From positions 3,782,001-3,846,000 of the forward strand of contig NC_087381.1 in the NCBI RefSeq assembly GCF_963675165.1: 64,000 nucleotides of DNA, read 5' to 3'. The stretch's first letter is position 1; each line of letters begins with the position of its first letter. Under the pieces are notes generated by a model. The model saw only the letters and a program-made list of their open reading frames with translations. It did no database searches and was not told the DNA's origin. This document shows, piece by piece, positions 5,880-63,000 of this stretch. This DNA is from Halichondria panicea. Taxonomy: Eukaryota > Porifera > Demospongiae > Suberitida > Halichondriidae. The position numbers and the translations under genes were made by a program.

Positions 5880-8800
5880 TCAGAGAGACATCTGCTGATC
5901 CAGAGAGGATGCCACCCACGAGGAGTGGTGGTGATTGATCTTGTCCACTATGGAGTTAACTAAGCAGCATACACTGTGTATCTTGTTGTCCCACGAGGGA
6001 AGAACCTCTTGCTCTGTGTGATAGTGCATTGTAGAGTAAAACGTGCATGCAATACGCATGAGCCCTATTTATACAAGCACTAATTTGGGTAAACTAGTCT
6101 GCAATTGTCTCAAGTACTCACTTTTAAAATAAACTATGCCGTCAATTTGATCAATAGTTCCATTCATTCGTCTCTCAGCAATCATCCTAGCCGAAACTTT
6201 CTCAGCCTACAATGTACATAAATAACAACGAAAGTATGCACGCATGGAGACTAGCAACAATCCACAAAAATATATAGTACATGTACACTTGCACACACCT
6301 TTGTTTCTACAAAGCACAATGTATATACACTGGACCAACCTTAGCTGGAGGAATGGCCAATAGTCTACCTAGTTCCTCGAACGTAATGTTATTGTACAGC
6401 TTGCTGGCAGACAGAATATTGTGTTCTATAACAGCTTGATCCAGAATACTAGAACCTGATATCGTATATCATGATCAGCACACACACAATTAAAGTGTTG
6501 TAATGATAATACATGTAAAGTGAATACTTACCATCAGCAGTGGTTGCTTTTTGATGGCTAGCTAGCAACACTGAGAACTCTTCTAACTCATTTAGTCGAA
6601 TTATCCTCTCCAGATACCTTCATCATACGATGTACATGTGTAATTATGCAGGTTGATAAAACACCCTACACTATGCAATTAAGTTGTTGCAACCACTGTG
6701 TGCATACAGGTGTCTTAAATACCAGCATTGTCATACTTTTGTACACATGTTCTGTTGCTACATTGTATAACATAATAAATATTGTTTCAATACCATTGGC
6801 TCATATATCTGCAACTATCACATGTTCAGAGCTTACACCTGTTGTACATACATTGATTGTACTGCTATATAATATCTCACATTTTTTCCAGAATGTTGAA
6901 AGCTGGTAGTTGTTGACATCGTTCATCTTTGTACAGGGTGGAAAGTTGCTTTGATCTCTGCTGACCTGGGATATACATTATACATGTAAGGCAGTGACAT
7001 AATAGTTATAATTATGTGACTAAAATGATTGTCTAACGTACTGTACATGTACATTTCACCACCCTTATTAAATTTCAAAAATAGAGCGTACTACGTGTAC
7101 ATAAATTGTATACATGGGTCGATACACATTCACCAATTGGTAATCCCTGCCATGTAACATTTATTGCACTAACCTGCTTGGGAGAGTATGGCACATACAG
7201 AGGCACAGCGCAGTGACTGCAGCCTCTCACTGGGGTGAATGGCAGGCTCATAAGACAAATGGATGTAGCGCCGAGCAGCATCGTTGAACTTACGTCTGAA
7301 ATCGGCCATTCTTGCACAGCAAACCTTGGTAAAAATTACAGCAATTAGTAGGCAATTAGTATAATTATTGAGAGCATGATAAATTGTCCTGTTCCTCAGG
7401 TAGACAATTAGAAGTGTAAAACTATAACTATGGACTGCACAGATGTACATGTACTATGATTGTACATGCCTGATTGATACATCATTATGCCTCGGTGCGC
7501 ATGCGCAAGCGAGGTATACGGTAGTGTGTGTGTGTGTGTGTGTGTGTAGACTGCTATTATAGCTGCTCAAGGATCAATGAACTGTAAGTAAAAGTTTCTA
7601 TAGGCTTCTAGTAACGTTTTCTTGGATTTTAATTGTGGATTTGAAAAATAATACTTTGTTCTCGAGTTATGCCTACTTTTGCTTGGAATGCCACATTGCA
7701 GCCTTTTCAGAAGAGTGCGTAGCAAAACTTGTCCATGGATTGAGTGTTGCTACTCTACTTAGTAGTTAGCTCTGCACTAGAACGCTAGCTATTGGTAGCT
7801 GCAAGAGTGAAAAGAGAGCTGCAAGGCTCTGCTGATATGCAGCCATTCATTTTAGACTTTGATATCGATCGTTTTTAACAACAATCATGGTATATCATTA
7901 CCCACTCGTTGAGTTTCTGTGTGACTCTACATGCAGCAAAATTTATAAAATTGTTCATCATGATAATTATGTGTGTATAAAAGCTATTACTATAATAGCT
8001 AGTGGCTTTATGTTATTATGTTGTGTAGCTTTGAAACCTCCACCGAGGCATCAGCACCCGCGGTGCTTTCATTCTACCAGGTTTCTCGCAAGTGTTCAAG
8101 TGATGGCGACTCAGATCGTTATGTTCTTATAAGCTAACGTACTCCAGAACTTCATAAACCGTACCTTGTAAATAATGTGCAGGTCGTTTCTGTCCACCTC
8201 TGACTGCAGCAAAGCTGCTCTGTTGATGTAAGCCTCAGCAGCTACGTGATTCTGCTCTTCCAAATACAGCTGAGCTATCCTTAGGTACACTTCCATCTTG
8301 AAGTCCGAAGGGTATATTCTATGTGGTAAAGGTAATCACATTTAATTTACATGTGCGACTACTACGTGTGTACATAGTATAATTATAACGTTAGCAGTAT
8401 ATGAAATAAGCCACTAAACAAGGCTACATGTATATACAACCTCTAGTGGTAAAGAATTGACTGATACTAACTTTTGCCCGGAGTCCATAGGAATTGCACA
8501 CAGCAGTTCAGCACTTTCCGTCCAATTCTGCTCAGCTTCTAAAATCTTTGACAGTGACAGTCTTACTTGAGTGGCCTGGCAAAATAATTGATAATAACGA
8601 TTAAAAAATTGTTAAGTTACCTGTTCCTCAAAGGAGACACTTCTGGATTGCATTTTGGAGAGAGTGAACAGGCACATGGGTTTAGCCACACTTTTCTCTA
8701 GCTCAGGGATCTTCTCACAGAAAAATGTCATGACTGCCTTAGATGACACAATTCCCAAACTCTCGTCCAGTGCTGTATACCAAAACAAAATTAACACATC

Positions 8801-9381
8801 TTTACAAGCGGTATTGCTTAACCCATGTGGGAGCATTTAATTAATACAAGATACGAGTGGCACCCAGAAAAACCCCCAAATTACGTTCATGGCATCTTTA
8901 TTGACATGTACAGCTGCACCTACATTGTAGCTAGCTATGCATCAAATGCATGCTCATAATAATAATTATAGGCCGAAACAATACTTGACAATACAAACAC
9001 GCCTTTTTACAAGTACCATAGAAGTTTGGACTTTACCGAGTCGGCACTAAAATTACAGTACTCACGCAGTCAACACACATTTCATACTGCATAAAATCGT
9101 GCTTGAGCAAATGCAGCTGAGTGGTCTATGCATACTGTGGAAAGGACAGTTGACCAGACTAGCATTAATTCATGCATGCTACCGGGGTAGCTATACTCTC
9201 AGCTACATGTAGCTAGTCCCAATGGTCTACCAGCATTGACGAAGACCTCCAAAGCTGCCCTCAGGTCATTCCCTTCCTTGCACTCATCTAATAAGGAAGA
9301 AAATACCTCCCTGTACTTTTCAACTACATTCTTGGCAGTAGACTTGACGTTCTTCAGCTTGGACTGTGCAATAGACGCCAT
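5880..9381 (-). CDS. COPS4: COP9 signalosome subunit 4 (intact copy)
   Basis: Subunit of the COP9 signalosome, which removes NEDD8 from cullins. Ten minus-strand exons: 9231-9381, 8621-8772, 8472-8575, 8165-8318, 7174-7324, 6881-6965, 6532-6617, 6340-6455, 6122-6206 and 5880-6013. They total 1218 bp, 405 aa plus stop, essentially the length of human CSN4 (406). Recognisable stretches are [75 protein letters not shown] and [16 protein letters not shown], covering the helical repeats and the PCI domain in the usual order; the carboxy end is [17 protein letters not shown]. Introns 4 and 5 are enlarged; intron 4 contains a dispersed repeat. The start codon is 153 bp from the divergent TRPA start. 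The left breakpoint of the segmental duplication lies in intron 5. Confidence 0.97.
7485..8080 (+). repeat. dispersed hairpin-ended repeat, full-length copy in COPS4 intron 4
   Basis: About 595 bp. The left end is gcctcggtgcgcatgcgcaa followed by gcgaggtatacggta, with CCTCG/CGAGG pairing as a hairpin, then a GT microsatellite at about 7526-7548. The right end is accgaggcatcagcacccgc then ggtgctttcat, with gcaccgcgggtgc-type pairing. No coding capacity. Its duplicate is at 31025-31622. Superfamily is unresolved; hairpin-bearing ends could suggest Helitron-like non-autonomous elements. Confidence 0.65.
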
Positions 9382-9533: not shown

Positions 9534-12500
9534 ATGGCCAACAAGAGTACAAGTCAGGAAGGCATTTTTCTGCAAGACCTTTCACTGCAACTGCATGAAG
9601 TAAGGTGTTGGTTAGATCAATAAAAAGGCTATACTCTTGACTCAAAAATGCAGTTGGTTTTTCGATGTTGTATACTGTACGTATTGCAACACATTACGAA
9701 GCCAGAGGTCTTCTCTTTTGTAGGTTGAAATGTTATGTTTGGTTTCCTGGTATCGCATAGTTAGAGGGTCACATCTCGATTGCAGGCCGCTTAAATTACA
9801 TTGTTTCTAGCGGCCTGTAATCGAGGCTATGGTTTGACCTCTATTTAGGACGCAACATGAAAAATAATTGTCAACACAGCAGTCACTATTTTTAGAGGTC
9901 AGAGAATTGTTGCCTAAGATCGAGGGTGCCCCATATTTGGAGGTTCGCCTTAAATCGAATAAGTACGGTAGGTACAAGAGGCTCTCTGTACTGAAATTAT
10001 TCTTGTTGCCAATGTCAACAGTGATGATTTTGTGAGTGTCTGTACAAGAGTGACGGCATGTGTGCATTTCAGGCGAATCCAACAGTGTCGCTCAAATAGA
10101 AAAAGAAACAACTATAATTCCAGTATGACGGTTTTAATTATTGGAGTGGCGCTTAGCATTAGATAGTAGTCCATGAAGCTATAATAGATAAACTGTAGAT
10201 GTATAATTACCCGAGGCCGTGCCGCGGCCAGCGGGTACAGTAGTCCGTTGGTTTGTTTGTTTGTGTATTTTTGCGTCCTTTTTCGAGGTACGTATATACA
10301 GCTAAAGTAATCCTGTACAGGAACAAAATTTCATTGCTCATAATTATTACTTAGCCAGGTTCCATGCTTCTTACATACTATACCATTTGTATTACTCCAA
10401 ACAGCTGAGGGTTAGCACTTCAGTGCTCTAGTTTTACTATGTATAAATTATAACCTTGATTTCAAGACATATAATTATTATGTAGCCCCCAATTAAAAAT
10501 TGACTTGGCGCTTCCATTAGGGGGGTGCTGTAATTAGAAAAAAGACGATAATTAATTGTCACTGTGTATACAATTGTGACCGGGCCTAGGAAAACAACCC
10601 TTATGGAGCAAACTAGTAATGTTCAGTACACTACAAAGTAAAATAATTAGAGCTATTTTAGGATTTTGGTTTTCTTTCATAAGAAGTACATAACTTCAAT
10701 ATCTCCTCTAACTTTAAAAAAAAATTTTTTATCCGAAAATTTTTTTGTATAGCCGTTACAAGGCAGCCATTGAATTTTTTCATGCTGTTCTTGAATGCGG
10801 ATAGAACTTGGAACATTAGTTTCTCAAAACGGTAGGTCAATACTGTCCCCCTTTCACCCGAAAATATTTTAGGGTAGGAAGGTGCAAAGTGAGTGATATT
10901 GTAATCAATTTGAAGCTTAAGCACTGCTTTATTTAATTAAGCAATAAAATACAATTAATTAGTTTGCTCCATAAGGGTTGTTTTCCTAGGCCCTGTTAGC
11001 CTCCTTCGCAGCCTTTCCTTTTTCTGTTCTTTGTCACACGGTTAATAAGATAAAATACGGTAAGAATTGGAGGAACAAAGAAAGAAAGAAAGAACCGTCT
11101 AAGAAAAAGGAGAGCCTGCCTCGCTAAGTCGCGTGACGGTGGCACAGTGAAAATGAGCGTGGGCTTTCAGTAGATGGGCCGAGCCTGACAGGCAACAAAG
11201 CCACAGGATGCCTACGCATTGCAGACTTACTTTTATATGCAAGTCTGGAGATATTATCATAGACGATGGCTTTAATACCTAGCATAGTGAAGTCTGAAGA
11301 CTAAAGGTCTATCTTTGAGCCTATCCTCAAGCCTCAAATTGAGGCTTGAGTTATTATTATTGAACAGTAGTCTAGTCTAGAAACAGTGTATTTGAGAATG
11401 ACATGACAATGTTGCAAGGTTGTGATCTCATGAGTACTGACAGAATGAGACTAAACCATACTAATTTGCAATTGTGTGCATGAGACAGTTTTCACAGAGG
11501 CACGAGCACCAATGTCGAATTTTCCCTTAGTTCGTAATCTAATTTGATGTTAGAGATCGATAGGGTCTAGTCAATTCCATAGTCGTACAATCCTATTGTT
11601 TTTGAGGTTCTGCTCCTTTTGGAAACTTTCTGGCAGTAGAACCAGCTCTATAGTGGATACGAAAATAAAACCTGCAGATAAGCACTCATCAGGTCTACAT
11701 TGTCTGCTGTAATTTGAGACACTCGGCTAGGTCGAACGTGAGGTCTTGAGAGTGGGAGCACATTGAGTTTCATAAGGCGAGTCTGTAGTTCTGCTGTAGT
11801 TCTACTGTAATTATCCAAGGATAAAATTAGTTGCCCTTGCCCTTCTAGTTTGGATAGTGTGATTGTGCCAGGGCAATCTATATAGCTTCTTCTTCTTCAT
11901 TATGACTTGGACTAAAACATTCCTTCTGATGACATGAAGGGATCTGTCAATTTTGGCATGTCAGAAGTATTGCTGTGAGTTGTCCAGGATCTGGGATAGG
12001 TTCCTTCTTTGCCCAGGTCCTTTTGACAAGGGCTATTATCAGATACAGTAGTACTCTAGCCTTTCATACTTCATCTTGTAGAGCTAACTTCTACATACTG
12101 GTCTGTAGCTTCACACACGTACACTAGTAATGTATAGTACACTGCTTTGCCTCTAGTTCCTGGTAAATACGCTCCAAGTACTGTGTCACAGTGTGTGGGA
12201 GGACAGATATTGCGGTTTACTCTTGCCCACGCTCAATTAAATTTGGCTACGTCAGTAGCAGATCACAAGACTTAGCGGGGCAGGCCTTCCTTTTTCTTAG
12301 TGGCTTCCTTTTTTCTTTCTTTGCTCCTCCAATTATTCCCGTATGGTGTTAACATTGTGACAAACAACAGAAACAAAATTATAACTGAAAAAGGAAGGCC
12401 TGCGAAGGAGGCTAAGGCCCTGTCACAATTATTCTAAGATCATGGTTACAGTGTAGGTGATTTCGAAATTACACTGTTCAAAGTGTTTCGATATCACCTA

Positions 12501-15500
12501 ATCATAATAATTAAGATCATGGTTAGAACCATGGTCTTAAGGTTACGGTCAACCGTTTGCTCATTAATTATTCATGAGCTAGATCTAGTGATCTTTTCCA
12601 GCTAGAATGAGCTGGGAAACGCAGTGGCTCGAATAGACACTTGTAATCCTATCATCGTGTGCCTGTTCACATGTATACATGTATGTATAGCCTTTGACTG
12701 ATGAAGAAACCAATCACACCAATAGAGATCGTAGTGAAGAGTTCAAAATTATTGAAGAGGTAGGTAACTTTTTCGTGAGTCTAAAAATGTTTGTGTTGTG
12801 TTTGTGAATTTTTTAGTCAGAGTACTTAGTCTAGAGCACCCATGCCTCGTTTTGTTGCAAAATCAGTGCCTGAAGAATTCTTTCGAAAATGATCCACTAT
12901 GCAGTCAGTATTATACATGTACATGTACTTGCAGTGACTTGTGACCCTTAATGAATGTACTCGTATACATGTACATGTACCGTCATGCTTTGTTACAGTA
13001 CTCATAATTCTTCTTTAATTGTAAGCGACATACTTCTGAAGGAAGTCAGTCGATTTGTCACGTACAGTATGTAATGTGAAACCTGCCTATTGTAGTCGCC
13101 CTATAAGCAGGCCACCCTCTATAATACAGCACATGCACATGTACAAGTCATGCTGTGAATTTGCCATATCATAGGTAATTATTGAAGGTGAGGATAATAT
13201 GTTGGACGATGTTCGAGAATGGCTAAGTCGCACCAAAGAAGCTGTCACATTAGCCAACGAAAAAGGAGCGACTGCACTGCATCTCGCAGCGTCTAGCTTT
13301 AGGATTGAAGTTGCAAAACTGCTGTTGGAGAATGGTGCAGGTAATGAACATGCATACTATTGCTCTGTGTGACCCGACAAAGGTCCCTGTGTTCTCTCCC
13401 CATTTTGTCAAGTATAATTATAGTGGATGTACATGTATCTGTATAGCGCTCACTAACATTTCTGCCATGAGCACTTCTTAGTATTTGTACATGCAAGTGC
13501 ATTTATTAACATGTAACATAATAATTATGTGTCAGTCAAGTCCTAGCTGTTACATGTACTTATTCAGGTTTCATAATTATGTGATTTGATCACATTATGA
13601 TATTCACTGCAGATCATAGAATGGTTGACCAGGAAGAGAAAACAGTGCTACACTATCTATGTGCACTTCCCAGTGTGAAAAACATCACTGCGTTTTTCAA
13701 ATTGCTCCAGGAGAAGTAAGAACATAACTGTTAAAATTTGTCAAGCTAATTAAGTTTTAAAGCTAGCCACGCTGCGGGATAGCTGGATGACTTAATTAAG
13801 TGATGATGAATCATGAGCAATTATTGCACACATAATTACTGTGCAATAAGACGTTTAAACATGACTGCATTCGATGAATCTCATTGGGCCTGGCTGTAGG
13901 TAACATGATCAGCAATGAACGTATACTGTACAGTTTGTTTTTCATGCTTACATGTACGGAACCAATTAATGTACATTGTACCCTGTATATTGATGCTACA
14001 CAGTTTGTATCAATTTAATTCACAGGATTGATGTTAATGATGTTAAGGCCGGTGATGATGAAAACATGACGTCACTTCATTTTGCTGCTGAGAATGGTCA
14101 TTTGGAGGTTGTCATTGAGCTGTTGAAAATGGAGGCTGACATGAAAGCTCGTGATGATATTGGAGACACACCTGTCCACAAGGCCGCAGAGGCAGGACAG
14201 ACCAAGTAGGGGAACATGTACACTGTCCAAATTTGTTCTAGTTTTAAAAAAAAGTTGTTTGAAAAGTGCAATGCTGTAACGCACAGTTAGTAGCTATAAT
14301 GTAGTATAGCAAAATAGTGGCCATTGTTTTTCAAGTCTGTCAAACAGAGATGCTTATAATTATAATGAAAGCACCGCGGGTGCTGATGCCTCGGTGGATG
14401 TGCCAAACGTACAGTACATCCAGTCTAGAGAGTAGAATACCACAATAGGTGAGTAGTTGTATTTCTAAATGTATCTCGATCGATTAAGATTGGAACATTT
14501 CTAAGAAATTAGTGCTGATACCATTGTACAGGTGAATAAATATAAGCTACAACATTATGCAAAAATATTTCCCCAAAAGTTGTTGTAGTGGGAAATCATT
14601 TTAGGTGAAAATGGGGTGATCGTGTGTAACATCAAGTATTTCTGGACAAAATGTTCTTATCAAAAGTTGACAATTTATTCAATCTTACGTAATTTTTCGA
14701 CCTTAGCCGTAAGATTTTTTTTAACCTTACCGAAACGGCACTAAAAATTAGCGATTTTGAGCACTGCGGAGGATGTGTAGATAGCAACATCGAACCTTTC
14801 ATAAGATTAGCCAAACTTGTTGTGACTAAGTTCCAAACCTTAGCCGGAAACCGTTGGCCTTTTCTCTCCCTAACCGATTGCCCACTACACGTATAACAAT
14901 TGTTTACTCTTTTTATTAATCACCACAAACCCACCACCTTATGTTGTCATGGACATTTTTTTGAATATTTTGTAGCTTATTTAATCACCTACACAATGGT
15001 ATCAGCAGATTTTCTTGGAATTATAAAGCCCCGTTTACACGAGGCCTTTAATCCGGGTTGGAATCCGGATTAAACCTAACCGCGTTCGTGTAAACGGCCC
15101 TTATCCGGGTTCTAATTCGGATTAGCCAACCCACCTTTGGAGGTGGTTCAGATTGTGTCAGAAGCGGTTTAGCTGTGAGTAAGCACAAAGGGCTAATTCT
15201 GAGGCAGAGGAGGTACGACATACGCGTGTCATCCGTGTGTCTTTAACACACACTTTCCGAACTTTGACCTAAGGAATGTGTGTCTAAAACGTTTCCTTTG
15301 ATACGCGGATGTCGTACCTCCTCTGATTCTGAGGTGTTGTACATGTTGGTGGGTGTTTCTAGAGTAAGCCTGTAGCTTCCTATCAGCCAATGTTTGCGCA
15401 AATGAAATTAGTGGTCATTTTACTATGTCCACTACTCAGAAAAATCTGACCAGGATTCGACCAGGATTAGGTGTCGTGTAAACGGGGCTATATTATATTT

Positions 15501-18500
15501 AGTGCAACTAACATGTACAGTACTCTGCACATTAAATTTTGTGGTATTCTACTCTCTAGACAATTATGACATAAAACTACTACGTGTAGCTATTGCTAAT
15601 ACACACATGATATCATGATCGATGACCGTTGATTTTTTTTGTCACATTAATTTTGCTGCATGCAGACAGAATCACAGGAAAACTTGAAGATGATTGACCA
15701 TGATTGTTGCTAAAAAGGATACCAAAAGTATAAAACTATGGCTGCTCTTGCAGCTCTCTTCTCACTCTTGCAGCAACACCAATAGCCGTTCTAGTGCAGA
15801 GCTAAGTAGAGTAGCAACACTTCATGGACAACGCATTCTTCTGAAAAGGCTGCAATGGCATTCCTATTATTTTGCAAATCCACAAATTAAAATGACTAGA
15901 AGCCTAGATAGAAACTCGATTACTACATGTAATTAATTCTTGAACAGCTGTAGCAGTCTACACACACACACACACACACAAACACACTACCGTGTACCTC
16001 GCTTGCGCATGCACACCAAGGCATATAATTATGTAGTGTGGTGCTAACTGCTGACAAATAACGTACGTATGTATCCACTCGTAGAGTTCTGAAAGTGTTC
16101 TTCAAGAAGGATGCCTCATGTGCCACACTTTCTGGCTACAATGATGAGACCCCATTGCATAATGCTGTGTATGGGGGACACATAGAAACCATCAGGTTTA
16201 TCCTAGAGCACAAACCCAATGTCAATACCAGGTGAGTATCTTGCTCTGTCAGCACAGGCCGTGGGCCAATAAACATTGAGCACCCAGCACTAGTGGCACA
16301 CACTCATACATACACTGTGGATATACATGTAAATGCACTTGCAATAACCATAGATTGAAAAGGAAGGGGATTGGAAACGCAAATTTTTGCGTGAAACACT
16401 CCGCGTTATAGGGCGTGGCTAAAACTACAAAGGGATTATTTTATAATCAGCATGCTCATTACCTGTCTTGGCTGCCATACAATGTGCTGTACATAGAAAT
16501 GGTGAAATTGATCACTTTTAATGTTGAATATTTTAAAAAGTAAAGAGAATATAGCTCTAAAAGGTCGACTAAGCAACGCAACCACTATCACTAAACAAAT
16601 AAATGCTATAAAAGAAGGAATAGCCCTTACTATGAAGTCGTGAGAGGTCAAGGCCCGTGGTGTGTCTAAAAGTATACTAAAGTTTGAAGGACTATACTGC
16701 AAACGTTTATGAACAGTAAAGCTTATCCATGGCATGAAACCATTCTATATAGCACTTAGATACATAATAACCAAGTCAAGCAATGTCTTTTGCTGTTTAG
16801 GCTTCGCAGCAGGGAAAGAGAAAAGTTGACATGGAGTAATTCAAGCTATACTCAACAAAAACTAAAAACAGAGTAAAGATAGCGGACTTAGACAAGTTAG
16901 AGCTTGTCAGTGGTGTAAACTTACTTCTCTAGAGTAACCTCCCAGCGTCTGAGTGATCGCTAGTGCATAGGAGAGCTAGAAACAGTTGAAATACAACCAG
17001 AGTACGGTCAAAACAAAAATAATCGCGAGCGCGAAATCATAACGCGGAGTGTTTCAACCATTTACACAGGGAGGCCTGGTCGTTTCCAATCCCCTTCCTT
17101 TTCAATCTATGCTATTCAGTCTCTACATGTGCTGTATAGATATGTATGTACATATACATGTATGTGGGCTTCTCTGGGGTAGTCAATTACATTACCTGTA
17201 AGTAACTTATCTGGGTCAGTTACCGTTGCAAGCTAGGTGTTTGTTGGGTCGTAGCTTATCAGGTTTTCTCACTTTTTGTAGGCTCATGCATGCAGTGATT
17301 ATCTATAACCTTAATTGTCACAATTTTCAGCACTAGCCTGAACACTATTTTGCTTCTGCCACATACATGTACATGCATACATTACAGGTCCACTAATGAT
17401 GAAACTCCTCTCCATTTGGTAGCGATTGAAGGGAGCATTGAAATTGCCCAGCTTCTTCTCAATGAAGGTGCTGAGGTCAACCCTCCTTCCAACAATAAAT
17501 TTACAGTAAGATGTGTGATTACGTAAATGTATAATAACTGATAATTCACCTGCACACGGGTAGTGATGTAAGACCTTGATTGTTGGTTAGTGCTTGTACA
17601 GCCAATTTATTAATACATGGCGCCATTCAATTACCGTATTTTATCGGACAGCAAAAAATAGGAATTGTCCGGGTATAATTGGAACAGATTTTTATAGAGC
17701 ATGCGAAGTGTCCGGAATAATTAGAACAAGCAAGCAGCTGCATGCGAGCTAGCTAAGTTTAATAGAACAGGGTACGACTGAATAGTTGCACTAGCTATCT
17801 AAAACTAGCTAATTAAAGCTATCTAACTGCAGTACTGTAAGTCTTACTTGCCGTCTATGAATGATAACTCAACTTTTCAAGGTATTGTCCGGATATTTAG
17901 AACAAATGTAATATTAAAGTACTGGAGTGTCCGTTGTATTAGAACAACGAAAATTGCCCAAAAGAGTGTCCGGGGTAATTAGAAGTGTCCGATATATTAG
18001 AAGATATACGGTACCTGGACTGTTAAATGAATGTAATTTTGTACAAGCAAATTTACCTATAATATATAGACGTTGTACATGTACATGCATGTACCTACTG
18101 TGTACGTGCTAGCCTCGTCCCCAGGCCTAGTTGTCTCTATTATAACTCTAGGTCGCCAACTAGGCCTGGTAAAGATTTTATATGATCGTGCCTGTCATGT
18201 TGGTAAACTGTACCGTAAAACATGTTGTAAAACTAGTTGTGCGTGGCTTAATCTTACCAAAACCACTGCACTGAGAGCTAGCTATAGCTACCGTAGCTTT
18301 ATAAACTAAGACCATGCATATGCTACTTCTAGTGTCAGAAGGCACATGTAGATCCTTAATATCCAGATGTTACAAACATATTCCAGAACTTGGCATGTAC
18401 ATGTAGCATTAATTTGAGACAACTCGACCTGGGACGAGGCTACATGTACATATGTGTGTACATGGCGTGCTTTCAACTTGGTGTGACAGTCTAATCATGA

Positions 18501-24219: not shown

Positions 24220-24600
24220 TACGTATACCTTCTAATTTATCGGACAGGAAAAAATAATTATTTTGGAAATTGTCCGGGTATAATTGGAATAGAGCATGCG
24301 AAGTGTCCGGAATAATTAGAACAAGCAAGCAGCTGCATGCGAGCTAGCTAAGTTTAATAGAACAGGGTACGACTGAATAGTTGCACTAGCTATCTAAAAC
24401 TAGCTACTCAAAGCTATCTAACTGCAGCACTCTAAGTCTCCGTCTGTGAATGATAACTCAACTTTTCAAGGTATTGTCCGGATATTTAGAACAAATGTAA
24501 TATTAAAGTACTGGAGTGTCCGTTGTATTAGAACAACGAAAATTGCCCAAAAGAGTGTCCGGGTAATTAGAAGTGTCCGATAAATTAGAAGATATACGGT
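24220..24600. mobile_element. TA-flanked MITE, 'TCCGGGTATAATTGG' family, copy B
   Basis: Starts taccttctaatttatcgg and ends gtccgataaattagaaga then tatacggta. Very similar to the copies at 17634 and 44149 throughout. The matching place in duplication copy 2 (near 56426) is an uninterrupted TA-rich empty site, so this insertion postdates the duplication. Confidence 0.8.
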
Positions 24601-44017: not shown

Positions 44018-44020
44018 TGA

Positions 44021-48800: not shown

Positions 48801-51800
48801 CCAATAATGTACGTATGTATCCACTCGTAGAGTTCTGAAAGTGTTCTTCAAGAAGGATGCCTCATGTGCCACACTTTCTGGCTACAATGATGAGACCCCA
48901 TTGCATAATGCTGTGTATGGGGGACACATAGAAACCATCAAGTTTATCCTAGAGCACAAACCCAATGTCAATACCAGGTGAGTATCTTGCTCTGTCAGCA
49001 CAGGCCGTGGGCCAATAAACATTGAGCACCCAGCACTAGTGGCACACACTCATACATACACTGTGCATATACATGTAAATGCACTTGCAATAACCATAGA
49101 TTGAAAAGGAAGGGGATTGGAAACGCAAATTTTTGCGTGAAACACTCCGCGTTATAGGGCGTGGCTAAAACTACAAAGGGATTATTTTATAATCAGCATG
49201 CTCATTACCTGTCTTGGCTGCCATACAATGTGCTGTACATAGAAATGGTGAAATTGATCACTTTTAATGTTGAATATTTTAAAAAGTAAAGAGAATATAG
49301 CTCTAAAAGGTCGACTAAGCAACGCAACCACTATCACTAAACAAATAAATGCTATAAAAGAAGGAATAGCCCTTACTATGAAGTCGTGAGAGGTCAAGGC
49401 CCGTGGTGTGTCTAAAAGTATACTAAAGCAGTTTGAAGGACTATACTGCAAACGTTTATGAACAGTAAAGCTTATCCATGGCATAAAACCATTCTATATA
49501 GCACTTAGATACATAATAACCAAGTCAAGCAATGTCTTTTGCTGTTTAGGCTTCGCAGCAGGGAAAGAGAAAAGTTGACATGGAGTAATTCAAGCTATAC
49601 TTAACAAAACTAAAAACAGAGTAAAGACAGCGGACTTAGACAAGTTAGAGCTTGTCAGTGGTGTAAACTTACTTCTCTAGAGTAACCTCCCAGCGTCTGA
49701 GTGATCGCTAGTGCATAGGAGAGCTAGAAACAGTTGAAATACAACCAGAGTACGGTCATAACAAAAATAATTGCGAGCGCGAAATCATAACGCAGAGTGT
49801 TTCAACCATTTACACAGGGAGGCCTGGTCGTTTCCAATCCCCTTCCTTTTCAATCTATGCAATAACATACTATTCAGTCTCTACATGTGCTGTATAGACA
49901 TGTATGTACATATACATGTATCAATTACATTACCTGTAAGTAACTTATCTGGGTCAGTTACCGTTGCAAGCTAGGTGTTTGTTGGGTCGTAGCTTATCAG
50001 GTTTTCTCACTTTTTGTAGGCTCATGCATGCAGTGATTATCTATAACCTTAATTGTCACAATTTTCAGCACTAGCCTGAACACTATTTTGCTTCTGCCAC
50101 ATACATGTACATGCATACATTACAGGTCCACTAATGATGAAACTCCTCTCCATTTGGCAGCGATTGAAGGGAGCATTGAAATTGCCCAGCTTCTTCTCGA
50201 TGAAGGTGCTGAGGTCAACCCTCCTTCCAACAAGAAATTTACAGTAAGATGTGTGATTACGTAAATGTATAATAACTGATAATTCACCTGCACACGGGTA
50301 GTGATGTAAGACCTTGATTGTTGGTTAGTGCTTGTACAGCCAATTTATTAATACATGGCGCCATTCAATTACCTGGACTGTTAAATGAATGTAATTTTGT
50401 ACAAGCAAATTTACCTATAATATATAGACATTGTACATGCATGTACCTACTGTGTACGTGCTAGCCTCGTCCCCAGGCCTAGTTGTCTCTATTATAACTC
50501 TAGGTCGCCAACTAGGCCTGGTAAAGATTTTATATGATCGTGCCTGTCATGTTGGTAAACTGTATCGTAAAACATGTTGTAAAACTAGTTGTGCGTGGCT
50601 TATAACCTTACCAAAACCACTGCACTGAGAGCTAGCTATAGCTACCGTAGCTTTATAAACTAAGACCATGCATATGCTACCTCTAGTGTCAGAAGGCACA
50701 TATAGATCCTTAATATCCAGATGTTAAAAACATATTCCAGAACTTGGCATGTACATGTAGCATTAACTTGAGACAACTCGACCTGGGACGAGGCTACATG
50801 TACATATGTGTGTACATGGCGTGCTTTCAACTTGGTGTGGCAGTCTAATCATGATGTTCCAATCTCTCCTCCAGAAATCTCCCTTCCACAAGGCTGCTTT
50901 CTACGGTCAAACAAAGTTGGCAATCTTTCTTCTGGAGAAGAATGCTGATGTCAGCAATGCAGCATTCAGAGATGTCATCTCCGAGGGCTATGAGTAAGTC
51001 TATTATAATTTTACTTAAGTAAGTAGTTAATGTTGTGTGCTTCAGGACCATTGCTAAGGCAATCATTGAAAAGCACCAGTGGCCACTCGCTCTTCGTGGG
51101 AGATACAAACGCCGGGGAAAGTATACGACAGCTTTGAGGGAACTGATTGTGAAAATGCCAGGTATTGTGATATAAGACCTATTCGTATGTGTATGTACGA
51201 TGTACATGTAGCTTGCTGTGTGCATGTACATGCATGCACATGTACTGTAGCTTTTATGTTATTAACAACAAACCATTTTTAATACACATGCATGCTTTAC
51301 AATTGTCAATGCTTTCTTCAGCTGTTGCAGAGCAAGTGCTAGATCACTGTATCGTTGAAAGTGCTGACAACAATGTTCATGAAGACACTAACTACAGCGT
51401 TGTTTACAACTATGAGTTCCTCGAAGATGTTCACGAGGGCTCTGGCTCTACGTAAGAATAATTACACACCTGGCTTACATGTATAATTGTATATACATTT
51501 CTACCGGTACATGGTATAATTATACAGTACATGTAAGTTTTTAAAGCTAGTGAAGTCCACTCTAGACCACTTTAAGTGTGATGCAGTTACAATAATTATA
51601 ATTACATGTATTATCTCACTGAAGACACTGAAGTACACATGTAGTTGTTCGAAAATAGAAAATAGAGTTTTGCCATTATTTTTATTACTTTCTCTTTTAC
51701 AGAGAAGTCTCAGAGGTGAGGACAAAGAATATAGTGAAATCTGACGAAGCAGATAGTGGGGGGAAGAAAAAGAAGACACATAATACTCATGGTTGCAGCT

Positions 51801-54800
51801 ATGAAGAAATTTGTGGCAGAGACTCTCCTCCCACTTGGGGTCCTTCTGCATTCAGCAAGGAAAAACATCCTCTGCAAATCATGGTACAGTTAGCCTCGAT
51901 TATCCAAACCCCTGAATTCTCGATTATCCAGATGAAAGATTCGGCCACATTTAATAGCAAACACGTACAGTACTTGCACATGCGATTTAAGTGTCCACGT
52001 GGTTGAATAAGTGTACTAGCTGTCTGAAAATGCATGTTCTATGCTTTGTGATTGCAGGTAGATCGAAAAGAGTTAAAACTGTTGAAACATCCAGTTGTCG
52101 GCTCTCTACTTCATTACAAGTGGAATAAATTTGGGTTGATTGGGTACATTGTCAATCTACTGACCTACGCCGTGTTCCTATCTCTGCTCACTGCTTTTGC
52201 CCTGCTAGTACCCAACCCACAGTCTCCTCAGTGTAAGCGCTGGGTACTCGTGTCATTGTGTAATGCAGCAGAGGCACTATAATTATGATTGTACATGATA
52301 ATGTTTATATTCTAGTCAATATTATTTTGTGAATACAAGTGCATCTACATGTACGTATTGGCATGTATAATATTGCATAATTATAGTACAACATTTTAAT
52401 GTACATTGTAACTGTGTTGTAAAGTTTGTATTTATTCTGCAGGTGTGAACAGCACAGTGCTTACAGAAAATGGAACATTGGTCTACTGTCCATTAAGTGA
52501 TATATTTTGATAAGGCCTGTATGAAGTTTATACTACACGTATTTGTACTGCAGGTATTAACAGCACAGTGCTTACAGAAAATGGAACATTGGTCTCCTGT
52601 CCATGTAAGTGAGAGTACAATGTACGTGCACACTAGAAGGTACACATATACTATATATAAATGAAAGCACCGGAGCCAGAGAGATACATGCTGTGCAGAC
52701 GTCACACGCACAAATTTGACCTACACCACCATTAGAGTACTTGTGAACTCCTCGCAGCCTTTAAAACCAGTATCTCTGGCTCCTAGTGAGTGAGGTGTTC
52801 TTGTTTAGTGTGTGGTGTGACGCTAAACAGGAACACCTCTTTAGGGCCAAGATACAGGCTGTGCAACTCAACTAGGCACCCAGATATGACTAGCCTCGAT
52901 TCCAGGCCGCGAAGAGAAAGGCGGCCTGGTATACTTTGTATGCACATGCGCGAAATAATTGACAGCAATTTCATCATACAAATTGTAAAAAAACGGACAA
53001 AGTTACAAAAAGGATAATTATGACAATGTGACCACAATGGCAGCTTTCAGAGACACTAATCAAAGTAAATAATTATGCTGCAGCAGTGTTGCTTGTTCTA
53101 GCTCTGTTTATCTAAGAGGCAGTTCAAGAAGGCCTCCCAGACAGCTAGAGCTGCCAGCTAGGAAGAGTGGTGGACTAATACATCAGTAGATCATTAATGA
53201 ATAACTTCCCGAGTGTCGAGTTAAAGCTTGCATTCAGGAGTGATCATTAGCTTCTTGATCTTCAGCAATGACTTCCTGTCGAACATAAAGGCAGAAGACT
53301 TGCCTGGTCCATATTACCACAACCTCATCACGTCAGGGGACCCACAGGAACACATGCTTTTCCCCTAACATCTGTAGACTTGGCTTGATACAATAAAGGG
53401 CGTAAGAACTCAGTTATCTTTGCACAATACTTCTATGTAACTTTACGCTCTCAACAACAACCCCGCAATAACCACGCCCATTATTGGCCGGCTTCTTCCG
53501 GTTGTTCCTGTTTAGTGGCCCTACATGTGCATATGCACATCGAGGCATAATTATAGTGTATCAATTAGCATGCATGTAAAATTAATTAATGCAATGCATA
53601 AATTATTATAATATGAAGCTGTGTGTAGCCTCCCCACTGTGCAATTAATGTCATTTTCTCCATGTAAATTAGTCAAGCACTATATTTATCTTGCAGCTAC
53701 TACAGATGAGTTAAAGGCATTTATCATTGCATCATCGGCTATTGTACTGCTCTTGGCTTTAGCTCGGTTTTTCTTTGAGATAATCCAGCTCTACACCAAA
53801 AGATTGTCTTACCTTACTGACTGGATTAACTGGGTAGAAGTCATTCAATATGTCACTACAATAGTATTTGTGGTGGTGTATAATACGGACAATTTCTGTG
53901 TCTTGAACTGGCAGTGGCAAATTGGAGTGATTTCCATATTCCTTGGGTGGATTAATCTCATCGTGTTTTTTTCAAAGCTACCGTTTGTAGGGATTTACGT
54001 TCTCATTTTGATTAAAATTTCCATTACCTTCTTCAAGATGCTGCTCTTGACCATGCTGTTGATAGTGTCCTTTGGGATACCATTCTTCATGGTTTTCTTT
54101 GACGCGAATGCCATTGTAAGTCATTGTACGTGCATAATGTATATGTAGAGCTTTTTATGGTTTGCACATTTGCACTTACATAGCTTTAATCATTACAGCG
54201 TTCTCCATTTTCGGATGTTCCCCGATCGTTGCTGAAAGTGATGACCATGACAACTGGTGAGCTGGACTATGACACAATTTTTCGTCTGGACCCGTCTGGT
54301 GGAAGTGATGATGCAGAAGAAATACGTTTCCCTCCGATTTCATTTATTCTCTGGATCATGTTCATCATACTAATGCCAATTATCCTTACCAACATGTTGG
54401 TATGTTCGTTCGTACTGCTTGTTCTAAACGGAACGTTACGTTATCAAATTAACGTTTCTGTTTGCCACAAATACAAATGTAGTAGCAATGTGTTTTCCAC
54501 TCTATGCAGTATGGAGACAGTTTTTTTCTTCTTATTCTCACAGACTAGTTTAGCAGTCGGTGACACTGAGGAAGTTCAGAAGGAAGCACAACTGCAAAAG
54601 CTTGCACTACAGGTAAGCCAAATGGAAAGCACGTAAAGGTGCTGTTGCCTCGGTATGACTAAGATTAGATTACCTCACCTTGCATGCGCAGTGTGAGTCG
54701 TGTGCACCATGAAATTAATGTGTATTCGTATTTATTATTGCAGCATTTTGCTGGTTCCTAGCTGTCTTACTTAATTATAATTATGCTAGTGCTTATGCTT

Positions 54801-56317
54801 TAATTGTGCTACATGTACATGTACAAATGCTTTTGAAATTGGCTAGCACAAAGGATTTTTAGAACCTCCTAAATTCAAGAAAACGTCCCTTTAACTTAAT
54901 ATAACAAATGTACGTAAATGCCGGCTAAACTTGTTTCAAAAACATGTGTACCCTAGCTACATGTACATGTATAATTATTCAGATTTGACTCTTTCACAAT
55001 AATTATGTAGGTTGATCAAGCATTGTCGATGGAAGAACTGGTAGTTATTTTTCAGAAATGGTTCAAGTGTTGTGTGCCTAAAGGTTGGAAGCGGACTAAG
55101 CCATGGCGAAAAATATTTCCAAATAAAGAATGCAGCACAATTAAGAAACTTGGATTCACATTGTGGGAAGGAGAGCGTTATGATGATATTCAAGCCATTA
55201 CTCGTGTTCTGTCCCCTCCTGAGGTATACATGTAATTGTGTTCTTGTAAAGTCTTAGTGAGTCACTGCTCTGATTGAGACACATACGTGTATGTATACGT
55301 AGGCTAGTTTTCCATGGCAATTGGTGTAATCATTTTGACCACCCTGTGTGTGTAATGTCCATTAACAGTGTCAGAATAAAAATCAAGGTTTTCGCAACTG
55401 CAGAATGCAAACAAAGAAGTGCTGGATATAGTTGACACACTAAATGAGAATGTATCTAAAATTGAAACTTCACTTCAGGAATTCAAGATATCTGTGGTGG
55501 GTAACAGTGTTTCTTTCTTAATTAAACGTTAGCGTGCAATTAGAAGCCTTGCGATGCTTGTTACTCATGCTATATTAATACATGTACATACGTGTATACA
55601 TGACGTGTTGTAGTATTGCACTCTTAACCATACTATAATCAAAGAATTAATAGCACCGAGTAATGGTAAATTAAGTCTCTCTGTGCCTGTGCACAAGGCA
55701 GCACTGAGTGCATTTACGTATAGTAGTCTGGGGGCCAGACCTTTTCTCATGGGGAAAAAAGAGAGAAGAGGTCTGGATACTCTTGCAGCATTTCCGTGTG
55801 CTCTTGGAATGTAGAGACTTACGACATTAGATGTCATTCATCATTATTTTCATATTAAAATTCACATGACATAGGAATCGGCTCTGGCCACATTCCACTA
55901 GAGCACACGGAAATGCTGCAAGAGTCTCCAGACCTAATCCTAGCTCTACTTGATTTTGCCCCCGAGATAAAGGTCTGGCCCCCATACTACTCGCCAATGC
56001 CTGTTACGATTACTATTAATTCAGAACATGTATTGCACTCAACAATAAACTCTGCATACAATGCATGCAGAGTTTACTAAAATTAATCATGCACATGTAG
56101 ATCATTATACTTTGTCATTAATGCAGAAGGAAAATGATGATAAAATACGCAGTATGGATAATACTCTCAAGGTTAGGTTGTCACCAGTAATTATTATGAT
56201 TGTGTCTAGTTATATAATTATTTTATGTATCTCTAATTCTTTCGAGTGCAGTTACTTTTGGAAAAAGTTGGAGAGGAGAAAGTTGGAAGCAGGAGGAATC
56301 GTTTTAATACGATTTAA
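45886..56317 (+). CDS. TRPA-like ankyrin-repeat cation channel, copy 2
   Basis: Exons equivalent to copy 1 exons 2-20: 45886-45954, 46361-46526, 46810-46912, 47223-47402, 48831-48977, 50126-50243, 50875-50993, 51046-51161, 51322-51451, 51703-51883, 52058-52232, 52554-52604, 53697-54115, 54199-54399, 54544-54612, 55011-55223, 55404-55496, 56127-56171 and 56252-56317. All donors, acceptors and phases are kept. Differences are few and in-frame: two extra codons in the exon at 51322, two fewer in the one at 51703, and scattered substitutions (IRF to IKF; LLLNEG to LLLDEG; NFW to NFG-type in S1). After S6 it keeps SLAVGD. Exon 1 of copy 1 has no equivalent here, since the sequence left of 45838 is unrelated. 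The start codon is therefore unknown; the body of the channel (ankyrin repeats, S1-S6, coiled coil) is complete. Confidence 0.9.
47562..48772 (-). repeat. dispersed hairpin-ended repeat, duplicate of 14367-16027
   Basis: Same position in the intron after the exon at 47402 as in copy 1, but without the AGCCCCGTTTACACG element. It shows the older state of this intron. Confidence 0.6.
49095..49858. mobile_element. hAT-like TIR element in TRPA copy 2 intron, with both 8-bp target duplications
   Basis: Ends catagattgaaaaggaagg and ccttccttttcaatctat, flanked on both sides by GCAATAAC (49087-49094 and 49859-49866). It is the ortholog of 16349-17110. The 100-codon minus-strand frame inside shows no transposase motif. 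Confidence 0.8.
52443..52493 (+). other. duplicated cassette exon 13a without splice donor (TRPA copy 2)
   Basis: Same structure as 20070-20120: a 51-bp near-copy of exon 13 (52554-52604), acceptor present, donor GT lost (CCAT followed by TAAGTG). Its presence in both paralogs places the exon duplication and the donor loss before the segmental duplication, unless gene conversion spread it. Confidence 0.85.
55655..56007. other. inverted segment (relative to copy 1) carrying a TIR element
   Basis: It reads, in opposite orientation, the sequence of 23312-23672, including the unique flank gtgcctgtgcacaaggcagc as well as the TIR element. Homology in normal orientation resumes at attactattaattcag. 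The TIR element here ends agtagtctgggggccagacc and ggtctggcccccatactact. Confidence 0.85.
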
Positions 56318-57022: not shown

Positions 57023-60000
57023 TTACAAACTTGTCCCCTCGATTTGGTACTCTCGAACATCAGGCACACTATCAGTAAACTTGATTCTCTGCTCTTCAAA
57101 CATCGATTTCCTTTCAACATCTAGTAAAATAATAATAATTATTATCACCACATGCATGCAAACAAACATGCACCCAGGGTCCGTCAAGCAGGGAATTATA
57201 CCCATTCCACAATTAAGACGAATCTAATTATAGGCTAGCTTGCAATTCTTCTGAGAGTGGGCCTGGTAATAATTATTAACGATTGCTTGCGCATGTGTTA
57301 ATCTCACCCCGGTATCTGGGGGCTAATTTGGATAACATCGTATTATGCCAAAGGCGTATACGCCTTGATTATGCTCAGTAAAACAATGATGTCATAACGA
57401 ACGAAAGTGGGTTGAAGGAATTAAGAGATAAAAAGTTCGGAATGTTTCGAACCCTTGATAGCATTCTGATATAGCTATCTCTTAGCCTTTATTCGGAGGT
57501 GGTTGTTAACAGAGGTTCCACTGTACAATAATTTTCTAACTGATAAACTTACTTTCAATGCCATTGCTAAGGTCTACTTTGACATGTTCTGAGCTCCCAT
57601 TTTGAAGAGCTGACACTGACATGCCGTCAATGTGCTCTCCTTTCTCAACGTGTGGTGTTGACCCATTGCCAACATTCACTACTTTCTGAGATTGTACTAC
57701 ATACTCTTCATAAGGTGGTGGTGACTGTGATGGTGTATTGTCACTAGTCTCTGGTAGCTTGATATCTGTGATTGCATTAATTGACAGCAACTCAAAAATG
57801 TATCAGGACGCGTATGGTTAGCTTAACACACCATGATCATCTGCATGACTGCTTCGGTCTGTATGACTGCTTCGGTCTATACGACTGCTTCGGTACGTAC
57901 CTGACTTCGAACCTCGTAATGTTGATGTTTTGAACGAGCTCAACCGCTCCTGCAAAATTTGAATGATTTATATAAAGTGCAATATTATAATACTTACAGT
58001 TGGTTTCATCATAAACTTACCAAAATGCTAGATTTGTGATTTAAATCAGAAGATGAGAAGTGTTTGCTAAGAAATTCTGATTCTGACAATTTGCCCCTCC
58101 ACCACTTCTTGTAGCCTTCTCTAACCTGCAAAAATCCATAACCATGCCAGTCAATTTCAACTTCACACTATAATTACATTCAATGCTGTACTATTAACGA
58201 ACCTGTTTCGACAATGGAACAAATAAGATGAATATTATGAAGCCCTAAATAAATGAAGAAATTACAAATCATCATAACCACAAAAAGTGTTTCTGAGAAT
58301 TTACCTGCAATCCGACGAAGATAGAAAAAATGAAGGCAAGGGCTATGGTTTCAGTGAAAACTGCCACTCCAATGATCCATGGAATACCCATACAAATAAG
58401 TAACACCACACTCGATTTCAGCCATTGACTGCAAGGAAATTAGAGTACAATATCCAAGGCAGCAACGGACAACCCACAACTTACGCTATGCTTGTCAAGC
58501 GGGACTTTTGCGACTGGCGCTTGGTATGCTTCCTCATAATGTACACAGACATGATGAAGAATCCTATGTTGATCTACAAGAGTGACAAGAATTTCTAACG
58601 AGTGCGGCTGACTTAAAGGCAAATGAACTCACCAATATAATCAGTATGACTGGTGCAATGAATGCCCAAACAAACCCAGTATCATAACGAAGCCAACACC
58701 TACAGTATATACACATGTACTGCAGTTGCTTGCAAGATTACGATGATAATTATACATACGTGTACGTACAACAAAGACGAGATATAATTACAGTCTATAT
58801 AGATATAAACGTACGCATCACTGCTTCCATAGTGGGGTTCTCCATCTGAACCTCTCAGGGCAAAGCCCAGTGGAACAGTTAAGCACAGGTAGAGCAGAGG
58901 CAAACCTACATGCATGACAGGCATTACTTGCCATACACGACTTAAACCTCATCAACTGCAACTGTGAATCAACTGACTATAGCTGTGCTACTTCTTAACA
59001 ACTCCCTATACCTGTACACTGCAAGTTGTGTATAATACTCACCATAGCTCACTAGAGCAAAGAATGCCATGTACAGTTTTGGCCTTTTGACAAACACTTG
59101 CACAAGAACAACATACAAAACAACCCCTTCCATGAGCATCCACATGAATGTAACCAGGAAGGCATAGTGCAAAACAACAGCAATTGACTGACAAAACACC
59201 TAGAGGAAGGAGAAAGTTAATGGTTTGTTTATAAACTGTCTCATAAGAGACTTACAACATTGTCTGTCTTGTCCACTGTGGTGACAAACAGCAGTTGAGC
59301 AATAAACAAGCATCCACACAAGTTGACGTGGATAAAATTACGCATTCCCCATAGCGACCTGTTGTCACGGGCAGCATGAGATAAGCATGCATTATGTGCA
59401 TACATGCATACTATAATCATACAATGTGTATACATGCAATTATATGCATGCATGTACATGTACATGTATTTACAGCTTACTTGACTATTGTGAGGGCCAG
59501 GATAGTCAACACAAGACAGAAGAGAGAAATGGACACACTGACATAACTAACAATTTCAAGTTGACGGATAATTTCTTCGGATGTCTACAACAAATGAATT
59601 GCAAGTCACATGATTATTGTCTATTGATGTATATATCATGTATACCGTATTTACTTGATTAAACGCCCAGGCGTTTAATTTATATCAAAGTCTGTAAAGG
59701 GGCGTTTAAACGAGATGGGCGCTTATTTGAAATTGTTAAGTCTATTCCTGCATAGCAGCAGTTATTATGCTCTTTTTGGCTGCTGCCACAGCTCTCAGCT
59801 TAAATCTTAAGTCATAGGAGTGGTGTTTCTCCCTCTGTGTCCTCTCTGCCATCATAAATAGTATTCTATCCTGCCATTGTTTCAGCTTTTTCCACGTGCT
59901 AATTCAGCTCCACCCACAGTGCCACGCCCCATATATGGGCGATTATTTAAGATGGGCGTTTATTGACAAAGACAGAGCTTTTACCATGGGCGTTTAAACA

Positions 60001-63000
60001 AGGAAGGTGTTTAATCAAGTAAATACGGTATGCATGTACATCAATTCTTACATTTATTCCAGGGCTCAGAAGAATGGCGAAATGTGTAAGATGAGTGCAC
60101 TCACAAACAGACACAGTTTCATTGCTCAGCTCATCATTCCTTGTACAACTTTCATTAGACCAGGCATGCCTGTGTGTCGATCAACAAATCATTCAAGCTA
60201 AACATAATTATGTTAAATTGATCTGTATACTCTAGCAAGAAATGTATAATTTTTTGGTGGAATAGTTGCATATTAGATTTGCACTCTATTTATAATTACT
60301 ATTATAAGCAACAGTTTTAGTTTCAGATAACCGTCAACGTCGCCATGGAATGTTACTCACGATGTTAAGTTATAGAAGACACAATCCAGCTGAGTATTGT
60401 TGTCCTACGGATAAAAACAACAAGAATTATTATAATATATCAGGTAATTATGCAATTATGTACTGATGGCAAAGCTCGTAAGCTAAGCGGATAGATATCC
60501 AGTACTGACATTCGTGTGCCCAGTGAGACTATTATAAATTGTATCTGATTCATACCAAAAACCTCACACTGTTAGTTGTACGTGCATGCAATTGAGGTTC
60601 GTAAAGTTTTACACAAAAATATAGTAAATTCGTGGGTATAAATGTTTGCGGTACATGCAAAAACGTACCACAAACATTTATACATGTACCCTCGAAATAA
60701 TTATACTCGCTACATGTATATACGGTAATGTAGCTAGTATAAGCAAAGTATAATTATAAGCAATACTATGGCGTGCAATCTTTCCGCATGTTTACTGCAA
60801 ATTTTTTGAGGCAATTGGGAGAACACAGTCCATGTGCATTCTAATTACGACAGTTGGTGCTTGCATTAGTGCGGTTCTATAATTAGAACGACTACGGTAA
60901 ACACTTCAGAACTCACAGTTTTGTTGACTACAAGCTGATAACGCACTGGGTCACTAATATTAAGGTTGGACGCATCACAGTTGTCGCACAGCACACTGGA
61001 GCTGATGACTGGCATCTTTTCACTATAATTATGTACATAGATAAACATTAGCATGCGGCTTCCATGATAGTGGTGGTGGATATTGAACATATAATTATAA
61101 TCTCCAAAAAAATGATTCTTGATATAAACAGACCTGTCTATTCCAGGGCCGGATGGGAGGGCATTGGACAGATTCTTGAAGAAGAATGATGCAACTTTGA
61201 CTGAATGAATTAATGCAGAGCAAGAGTTCGGCACAGTTTCAACATCGGGTATTTAAATTGCACGAGAATTACTAAAATTATTGTGCTGGTCACATACTAA
61301 AATGCATACATAATTATTTGTACATGTACATTAACATGTGCACAACTATTGTAACAACGAGTGTTGCAAGCGTGCGCTTGCTAATGCCTCTCGCCATGTT
61401 ATGCTTTCTTATTTATAATTATGCCTCAGTTGCGCATGCGCAGCGAGGTATACGTACGGTAGTGTGTCTGTGTCTGTATACAGACTAGCTGCTACAGCTG
61501 TGAAGGAGGCTAGCCTGCATGCAACTAAACGTATATCATGATCATGATCATAATAGCTAGTAGCTTGGACACATCCACCGAGCCATCAGCACCCGCGGTG
61601 CTTTTATTAACTATACATGTACTATATGTACAGCAGTGTACATGTATGTATGTGCAATAATAATGCATGTATTGTACGTACCTCCTTCTCCAAAGTCAGA
61701 AGGTAGAGTAATGATGTTGCCACCTATCGAAATGCCTTCAAAACGTCCGGAGCTTCCATTAGTCACCATCAATTCTACAAAAACATGTTATTTTGTATAG
61801 TGAAAACTAATTAATGATTCCAGTACATTGTAAATTGTCATTGTAATAGCACAATTATTATTCGAAAACAAGCCCATGCAGTTACACATGTAGAGCTCTT
61901 GAAAATGTGCAATTACTGGTCCCGAAGACGTACCCCCAATTCGATACTCTGTTCATTGTACATACAATCCCACAATGGCCTGAGATGATCTTCAAGGATA
62001 GAAGCAAACATGCAGACGTATGATGATAAAATACTACCCATTTTCTGTCAATAAACAAAAAAGGGGTGGATCTGCAAATAAGTCAGAGTTCACAAAGGTT
62101 GTCTGGCAGCACATCTTTGCAATGTTTTCTGACTCTTATACAGTCAAAATCCAAGAACATGGCTAGAAGCCTAAAAGCTGTTAATTTTCATCACGTTGCA
62201 ACCGTTGAGCAGTACATTACAGCTGGAATATCGTTGCGGCTGCGCCTCGAGACAAAATTACAGTGCAGTAATAGAACTTACATCCACAAAATAGAAGTGT
62301 CTCGAAAATTTCGCGCTATACGGTATATTATATCAACATAAATTATTTTGCTACGCACGAGTCTGAAGAGGCCTTCAAAGTAAGCAAAACTAGCTATAAC
62401 TCAAGTGCAAATGCACAACTGATATTCAATTACTAGTATTAAGCCTATAGAAGCTCTTCCTTGCACTTCATTAATCAGTGAGCAGCTGTAGCAGCCCAGA
62501 TCGACAGACAGACCGACAGACCGACAGAGAGACAGACACAGACACACACGCTTTCATTAGTTTTTTTATTTGTTCAAGAAAGTATAAGCACAGAGAAAAG
62601 AGCCATGCTTGACGGTACTAAAACTCAAAGCGCCGGCAGAAACACGGAAGGTGCTCTCCAACAAGATGGCTATAAGCTTCCATGGGTCCACGGGCGCGGT
62701 TTAGATACATTTTATCCAAGAAGAGCTTGCAACTCCAGTAAGGGACCTCGAATGGTCAACGCTGGAGTCAAGGAAGCTCTTGAGCATCTGTAGGAGTCGA
62801 CGTGTTGCTCAACTAGCTCTTTGACGGCTGCAAAATTCGGCATAGTTTTGTTATTTTTTGCAGTCTGCATCGTGGATTGAATTGTTGCTAGGGGGAGGTC
62901 CTTTTATAGTGCTGCCGTCACGTGGTATAAGTCAGATATGCCACACCTACTCGGAGGATATGCACCCCATATATCCTCTTAGGTGTGGTATATCCTATAC

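Follow-up and report, generated by a model that had tools for sequence, protein, structure and literature searches.

A COPS4-TRPA-adhesion GPCR block probably duplicated in tandem in the sponge Halichondria panicea, with a mobile element at the seam

A stretch of 64,000 bases of the Halichondria panicea genome (contig C5:3782001-3846000, hereafter the window) carries the genes COPS4 and TRPA together with the gene of an adhesion G protein-coupled receptor (GPCR), and within it a block of approximately 23-32 thousand bases occurs twice in succession. TRPA is encoded by the plus strand, COPS4 and the adhesion GPCR gene by the minus strand, and the genome searched for further copies comprises 131.5 Mb in 39 contigs. 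The two duplication units and the genes and gene remnants are the following:

7032-29724, no strand: duplication unit 1 (U1), holding COPS4 exons 5-1, TRPA copy 1 and the 3' part of the GPCR gene (self-BLAST chain, edge alignment)
30578-62272, no strand: duplication unit 2 (U2), holding COPS4 exons 5-1, TRPA copy 2 and the 3' part of the GPCR gene, continuous with its 5' exons (self-BLAST chain, edge alignment)
5880-9381, minus strand: COPS4, complete, with 10 exons, 405 open codons and GT-AG introns throughout; exons 6-10 are outside U1, on its left (PDB matches, spliced model)
13178-23151, plus strand: TRPA copy 1 (putative ankyrin-type repeats, S1-S6, C-terminus), span given by coding blocks, 17 of 17 tested blocks open
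26749-29131, minus strand: GPCR pseudogene, 3' part (exon comparison with the U2 copy)
30719-33304, minus strand: COPS4 pseudogene, exons 1-5 only (comparison with the U1 copy)
46364-55496, plus strand: TRPA copy 2, span given by coding blocks, 17 of 17 tested blocks open
57818-63524, minus strand: adhesion GPCR gene from the presumed GAIN region to the C-terminus, with 16 modelled exons, GT-AG introns and 514 open codons (Pfam, spliced model)

Self-BLAST of the window and alignment of the edges showed U1 and U2 to be direct tandem copies of one block. The chain of direct matches pairs 7024-29724 with 30571-62272 and includes four matches of 2-5 kb at 96-98% identity, far above chance, and base-by-base comparison placed the unit edges at 7032 and 30578 on the left and at 29724 and 62272 on the right; no repeat chain extended past them in the self-BLAST within the window. 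The first-pass annotation, an initial reading of the same DNA, had seen the order COPS4, TRPA, GPCR twice in the same orientation, with edges at 7030, 29724, 30577 and 62272, all within a few bases of ours. The edge alignment and the gene models agree with it, moreover, in placing the breakpoints in COPS4 intron 5 and in a GPCR intron, the latter between exons 63422-63524 and 61682-61774, with no modelled exon between them. The layout it gave was thus right, but it had missed the strand relation, as COPS4 and the GPCR gene stand head to tail on the minus strand, and also the mobile DNA at the seam. On the left, ordinary COPS4 intron sequence precedes U1, and a mobile element directly precedes U2; on the right, the homology of U1 ends at 29724, and U2 runs on beyond 62272 into the remainder of the GPCR intron. 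The left edge is the more certain of the two, because the final 143 bases of homology between the units lie partly within a genome-wide repeat. Bases 29725-30577 fall outside both units and consist of repeats.

We then compared the copies of each gene. COPS4 was identified by PDB matches to COP9 signalosome subunit 4, and all 15 of its matches in the genome lie in the window, where exons 1-5 are found twice and exons 6-10 once. The copy in U2 retains all five exons of the unit, of which exons 2-4 are identical to those of U1, but exon 1 has a 1-base deletion causing a frameshift, and in exon 5 a 10-base deletion has removed the acceptor and 6 bases have been inserted. With its introns kept and disabling lesions present relative to the intact U1 parent, this copy is an unprocessed pseudogene.

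The GPCR gene, recognized by its Pfam GPS and 7tm_2 domains, shows the mirror arrangement, its U2 copy being open over the modelled part and continuing 5' past the end of the window as open frames, among which the first exon was not found. Three of these upstream frames were compared with Pfam, one passing the cut-off for calcium-binding EGF, one falling short of that for a Reelin subrepeat and one giving no match; further upstream frames look EGF-like by eye. In the U1 copy, 4 of the 15 compared exons are absent (Gb, Gc, Gl and Gm), Gl and Gm encoding, by eye, parts of transmembrane segments (TM) 5 to 7. Five more exons are damaged: Gd has lost its first part, Ge and Gf (the GPS exon) have deletions of 11 and 2 bases, respectively, Gg (the TM1 exon) combines a change of GAA to TAA with a lost donor, and Gp (the last exon) is shortened. 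No damage is seen in exons Gh, Gi, Gj, Gk and Gn, and Go carries an insertion of 3 bases. This copy is also an unprocessed pseudogene, with introns kept and disabling lesions against a U2 parent that is intact over the modelled part. Outside both units, searching the genome with the GPCR core gave only short matches of at most 166 bases (40 of 304 candidates scored).

TRPA was identified by the Pfam domain Ion_trans and by structure matching with the core of the U2 copy as query (U1 differs by 5 bases in the two blocks concerned), in which all 9 solved sequences among the matches listed were TRPA1; putative N-terminal ankyrin repeats were recognized by eye in open frames conserved with paralogues on another contig, C7. 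For the comparison of the units, 17 coding blocks were chosen, the frame of each being conserved with the C7 paralogues. Between the units, 15 of the 17 blocks have neither indels nor stops (761 codons; replacement divergence dN 0.0054, silent divergence dS 0.0167), and the other two have in-frame 6-base indels within frames open in both units. The best evidence that both copies stayed useful is the scarcity of indels compared with nearby non-coding DNA, as only 2 were seen in 2,592 coding bases, against approximately 21 expected from the non-coding rate of the same region (Poisson, 1.6e-7). Overall, gene models and exon comparisons support what the first reading had proposed, namely that COPS4 is complete only on the left and the GPCR gene on the right, that their junction-side copies are cut and carry several lesions each, and that TRPA stayed open in both units. 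Separately, a segment of the TRPA S1-S2 loop is doubled in tandem (111 bases) in both units, at 20055-20273 and 52428-52612, and the doubling is therefore older than the duplication.

Taken together, this arrangement very probably reflects, as far as sequence can tell, a direct tandem duplication of the COPS4-TRPA-GPCR block that left one spare gene and two pseudogenes. A block reaching from COPS4 intron 5 to the GPCR intron, or a somewhat larger one later trimmed at the seam, would have been duplicated directly in tandem, setting two COPS4-TRPA-GPCR copies side by side. TRPA would then have stayed open and almost free of indels in both, with the U2 copy of COPS4, lacking its 3' half, and the U1 copy of the GPCR gene, lacking its 5' part, both decaying. 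The seam between the units, and the repeat bordering it, are made up of three further features:

29469-29682, no strand: copy of the genome-wide repeat C at the right edge of U1, with a partial U2 counterpart at approximately 62144-62230
29725-29791, no strand: fragment of dispersed repeat B, starting at the left terminus of its family
29796-30575, plus strand: mobile element A, a complete dispersed copy of approximately 780 bases with a TAATAA end

Repeat C is fuller in U1 than in U2 and blurs the right edge. The seam fragment of repeat B starts where all 7 fetched copies of that family start, and the upstream flanks of those copies differ by eye. Element A has 39 other near-complete copies in the genome at 96-99% identity among the matches listed, some of them in head-to-tail arrays. 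It contains no open frame above 89 codons, and no exact inverted word of at least 6 bases occurs between its first 60 and last 120 bases; a 3' stem is predicted with a z-score of -1.57, 12 of 200 shuffles being equally good. Candidate words for a target-site duplication were seen at 7 of 28 copies, 6 of them in CAAA-type repeats and 1 in unique flanks, and none at the seam copy. In the available text of PMC4067079, HINE/DINE-1 rolling-circle elements are linked to gene duplications; element A resembles them as described there in having no frame above 89 codons and in forming head-to-tail arrays at other sites, and may do so in its possible 3' stem-loop and in how seldom a target-site duplication is clear, but differs in that no subterminal inverted repeat pair was found, and we do not assign it to them. 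In addition, a reversed fragment matching the 3' end of element A at 87% lies at 10206-10264, in the COPS4-TRPA interval of U1.

The two units differ by 322 substitutions in 16,770 aligned positions (1.9%), or by approximately 1.8% (290 of 16,517) without an inverted 253-base match at 23328 and 55722, whose 32 differences, from a partly palindromic element inverted between the units, inflate the figure. By region, divergence is 0.9% on the COPS4 side, 1.7% in TRPA and 2.9% in the GPCR part, with approximately 5% in the last two 1-kb bins and 1.2-1.7% at 25-27 kb, and there is no smooth slope. This unevenness was likely caused by gene conversion or mixed ancestry. The repeat-C end of the units was not used for dating, since it consists of a genome-wide repeat.

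Few substitutions between the units in many bins, and a seam holding an element as abundant as A, are also what would be expected if the units were two alleles that the assembler had joined at a repeat. Such false heterotype duplications share with our locus, in the available text of PMC9516828, neighbouring near-identical copies and genes cut at the seam. The mark of false duplications named there is a gap between the duplicated pairs, whereas here there is no N in the 64,000-base window and no gap between the copies. Moreover, the disabling lesions sit in precisely the two genes that an artefact would have had to cut, their modelled counterparts being intact; one of the two encodes a COP9 signalosome subunit with no other copy found in the genome, and the contig spans 7.6 Mb. 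We regard such a joining of alleles as very improbable, and the duplication as very probably real, an assembly artefact being unlikely.

The age of the seam was approached through element A, by aligning the window copy with 27 of the 39 listed copies (28 in total). The seam copy has 2 substitutions from the majority and no private one in 777 bases, and two indels, each of which recurs in another copy; private substitutions number 0-8 in the remaining copies, and 0 or 1 in many of these. At the mean divergence of the units 7.5 private substitutions would be expected (P = 6e-4), and at the COPS4-side rate 3.5 (P = 0.03), so that A is probably younger than the unit divergence. For this reason, the present unit edges may be secondary and may have been reshaped later. 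Element A stops where U2 starts; by our estimate, a chance later insertion exactly there is improbable, which argues that A took part in making or trimming the seam. An event at A (repair, deletion or unequal exchange) would thus have made or remade the seam after divergence began. The first-pass annotation had taken the arrangement as direct evidence of how a tandem duplication made one new gene and two pseudogenes; the products are supported, but to speak of direct evidence of the mechanism claims too much, as the seam holds a complete element looking younger than the divergence of the units.

These observations bear on two variants of the duplication. The original tandem may have been larger, with COPS4 and the GPCR gene complete in both units, the seam arising by a later deletion with A at its edge, in which one COPS4 would have lost its 3' half and one GPCR gene its 5' part. 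Under this variant, an element that fills the seam right up to the start of U2 and seems more recent than the divergence of the units is accounted for, and the lesions of both cut genes could predate the cut. It requires one more event than the simple model, however; that no repeat chain extends past the edges within the window is no real test, since a deletion of this kind would remove the evidence for one. We hold the variant to be a tentative possibility, to be taken seriously. Alternatively, unequal exchange between diverged homologous chromosomes, with B in the GPCR intron of one and A in COPS4 intron 5 of the other, may have produced the join, the divergence being partly old and allelic. 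Neither A nor B stands at the matching sites 7031/7032 and 62272/62273, which an exchange would explain, as it would a young A between differing units; but the many lesions of the cut genes would have had little time to build up after a recent join, and A and B are of different families, so that, by inspection, similarity is not expected to have guided an exchange, and we consider this origin rather unlikely. A read-through transposition that carried A and the flank downstream of it out of U1 and into the GPCR intron was rejected, as the U1 site 7031/7032 lacks A and, by inspection, the right part of B is absent after U2 at 62273.

Several points weigh against the direct tandem duplication as we have described it. 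Both units are known from the assembly of one genome, and divergence is 0.4-1.7% in 14 of 21 one-kb bins, as alleles of a variable animal could also show; a single clean copying event, unless gene conversion followed, does not account for its unevenness. The evidence for a young A comes from a single copy, and many members of its family have 0-1 private substitutions; conversion among these copies would give the same picture, and the contrast with the COPS4-side rate is weak. In TRPA, silent changes are only modestly in excess (9-10 replacements of 18, P = 0.01-0.03). Moreover, the exon-1 lesion of the U2 copy of COPS4 affects a single base among three consecutive T and might reflect an error of sequencing, which is hardly conceivable for the exon-5 lesion.

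A further consequence of the layout concerns the pieces facing each other at the seam. Both cut genes are on the minus strand, head to tail, and COPS4 intron 5 and the right-edge GPCR intron are both of phase 1, so that a chimera of COPS4 (1-237) and the GAIN-7TM part is possible. Transcription from the side of the U2 COPS4 promoter would cross the seam into the U1 GPCR remnant, and an undamaged seam would place the GAIN-7TM part in frame behind COPS4 codons 1-237, giving a product that would now be dead. Judging from strand and phase, it is only possible that the seam once encoded such an in-frame chimera, as a phase match arises by chance in approximately one case in three and both halves are now broken. 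A fuller scenario, in which the young element made or remade the seam, the first form of which encoded, under the COPS4 promoter, half of a COP9 subunit and the signalling half of an adhesion receptor, the fusion then dying and TRPA being kept in a repeated tandem expansion, appears to us quite improbable.

Other elements lie inside the units, among them one in intron 1 of the COPS4 pseudogene:

32760-33116, no strand: 357-base element with 75-base terminal inverted repeats

It is flanked by a 9-base target-site duplication (32751-32759 and 33117-33125), and its U1 counterpart is an empty site, which indicates that it entered the U2 lineage only and, therefore, that the units have separate histories. 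A stretch present only in U2 (33377-45851) holds several mobile-element frames, namely KDZ (just below the cut-off), DUF3504 with a phage-integrase match, a 556-residue open frame with DDE_Tnp_1_7, which we take to be of piggyBac type, and separate HTH_Tnp_Tc5 and DDE_1 frames, presumably of pogo/Tigger type; the same stretch has a minisatellite at 36351-39276 (approximately 154 bases, 18.4 copies). A partly palindromic segment of approximately 365 bases (23297-23661 and 55672-56022) has opposite orientations in the two units at 94% identity, which suggests that it may have flipped since the duplication. Moreover, a repeat of approximately 380 bases has three copies (17637-18013, 24222-24601 and 44150-44538), in places that differ between the units.

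The paralogues on contig C7 form a second, older TRPA tandem pair (C7:3439001-3489000), with copies approximately 24-28 kb apart and roughly 90% identical over most aligned blocks. Both copies contain 14 of the 15 coding blocks sought; the search for the remaining one, Ct_b, gave a match in the left copy and an additional one between the two, and none in the right copy. The left copy has a stop near the start of one block, perhaps outside the exon, and the right copy has two 3-residue gaps in the S2-S5 block.

Tandem duplications that cut the genes at their borders, possibly joining them, are already well described, at least in the available text of PMC5460883, on duplications segregating among 15 lines, where 24 of 76 chimeras had raised expression. 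As there, a tandem copy here has its edges inside genes, and at such a seam the 5' part of one gene can become joined to the 3' part of a second; in contrast to the cases described in that text, the cut genes here have decayed and the seam holds a mobile element. The locus is thus a clear but fairly ordinary case and no new kind of process, yet an unusually complete example with a mobile-element seam. Since the parents, the cut copies, the kept copy and the seam occur together within 55 kb, duplication, decay and mobile-element activity can be ordered and dated relative to one another, and the case is a warning that the seam visible today can be younger than its duplication. Finally, as contig C7 also holds a tandem pair, tandem expansion of this TRPA subfamily appears, from the sequences compared, to have occurred more than once.

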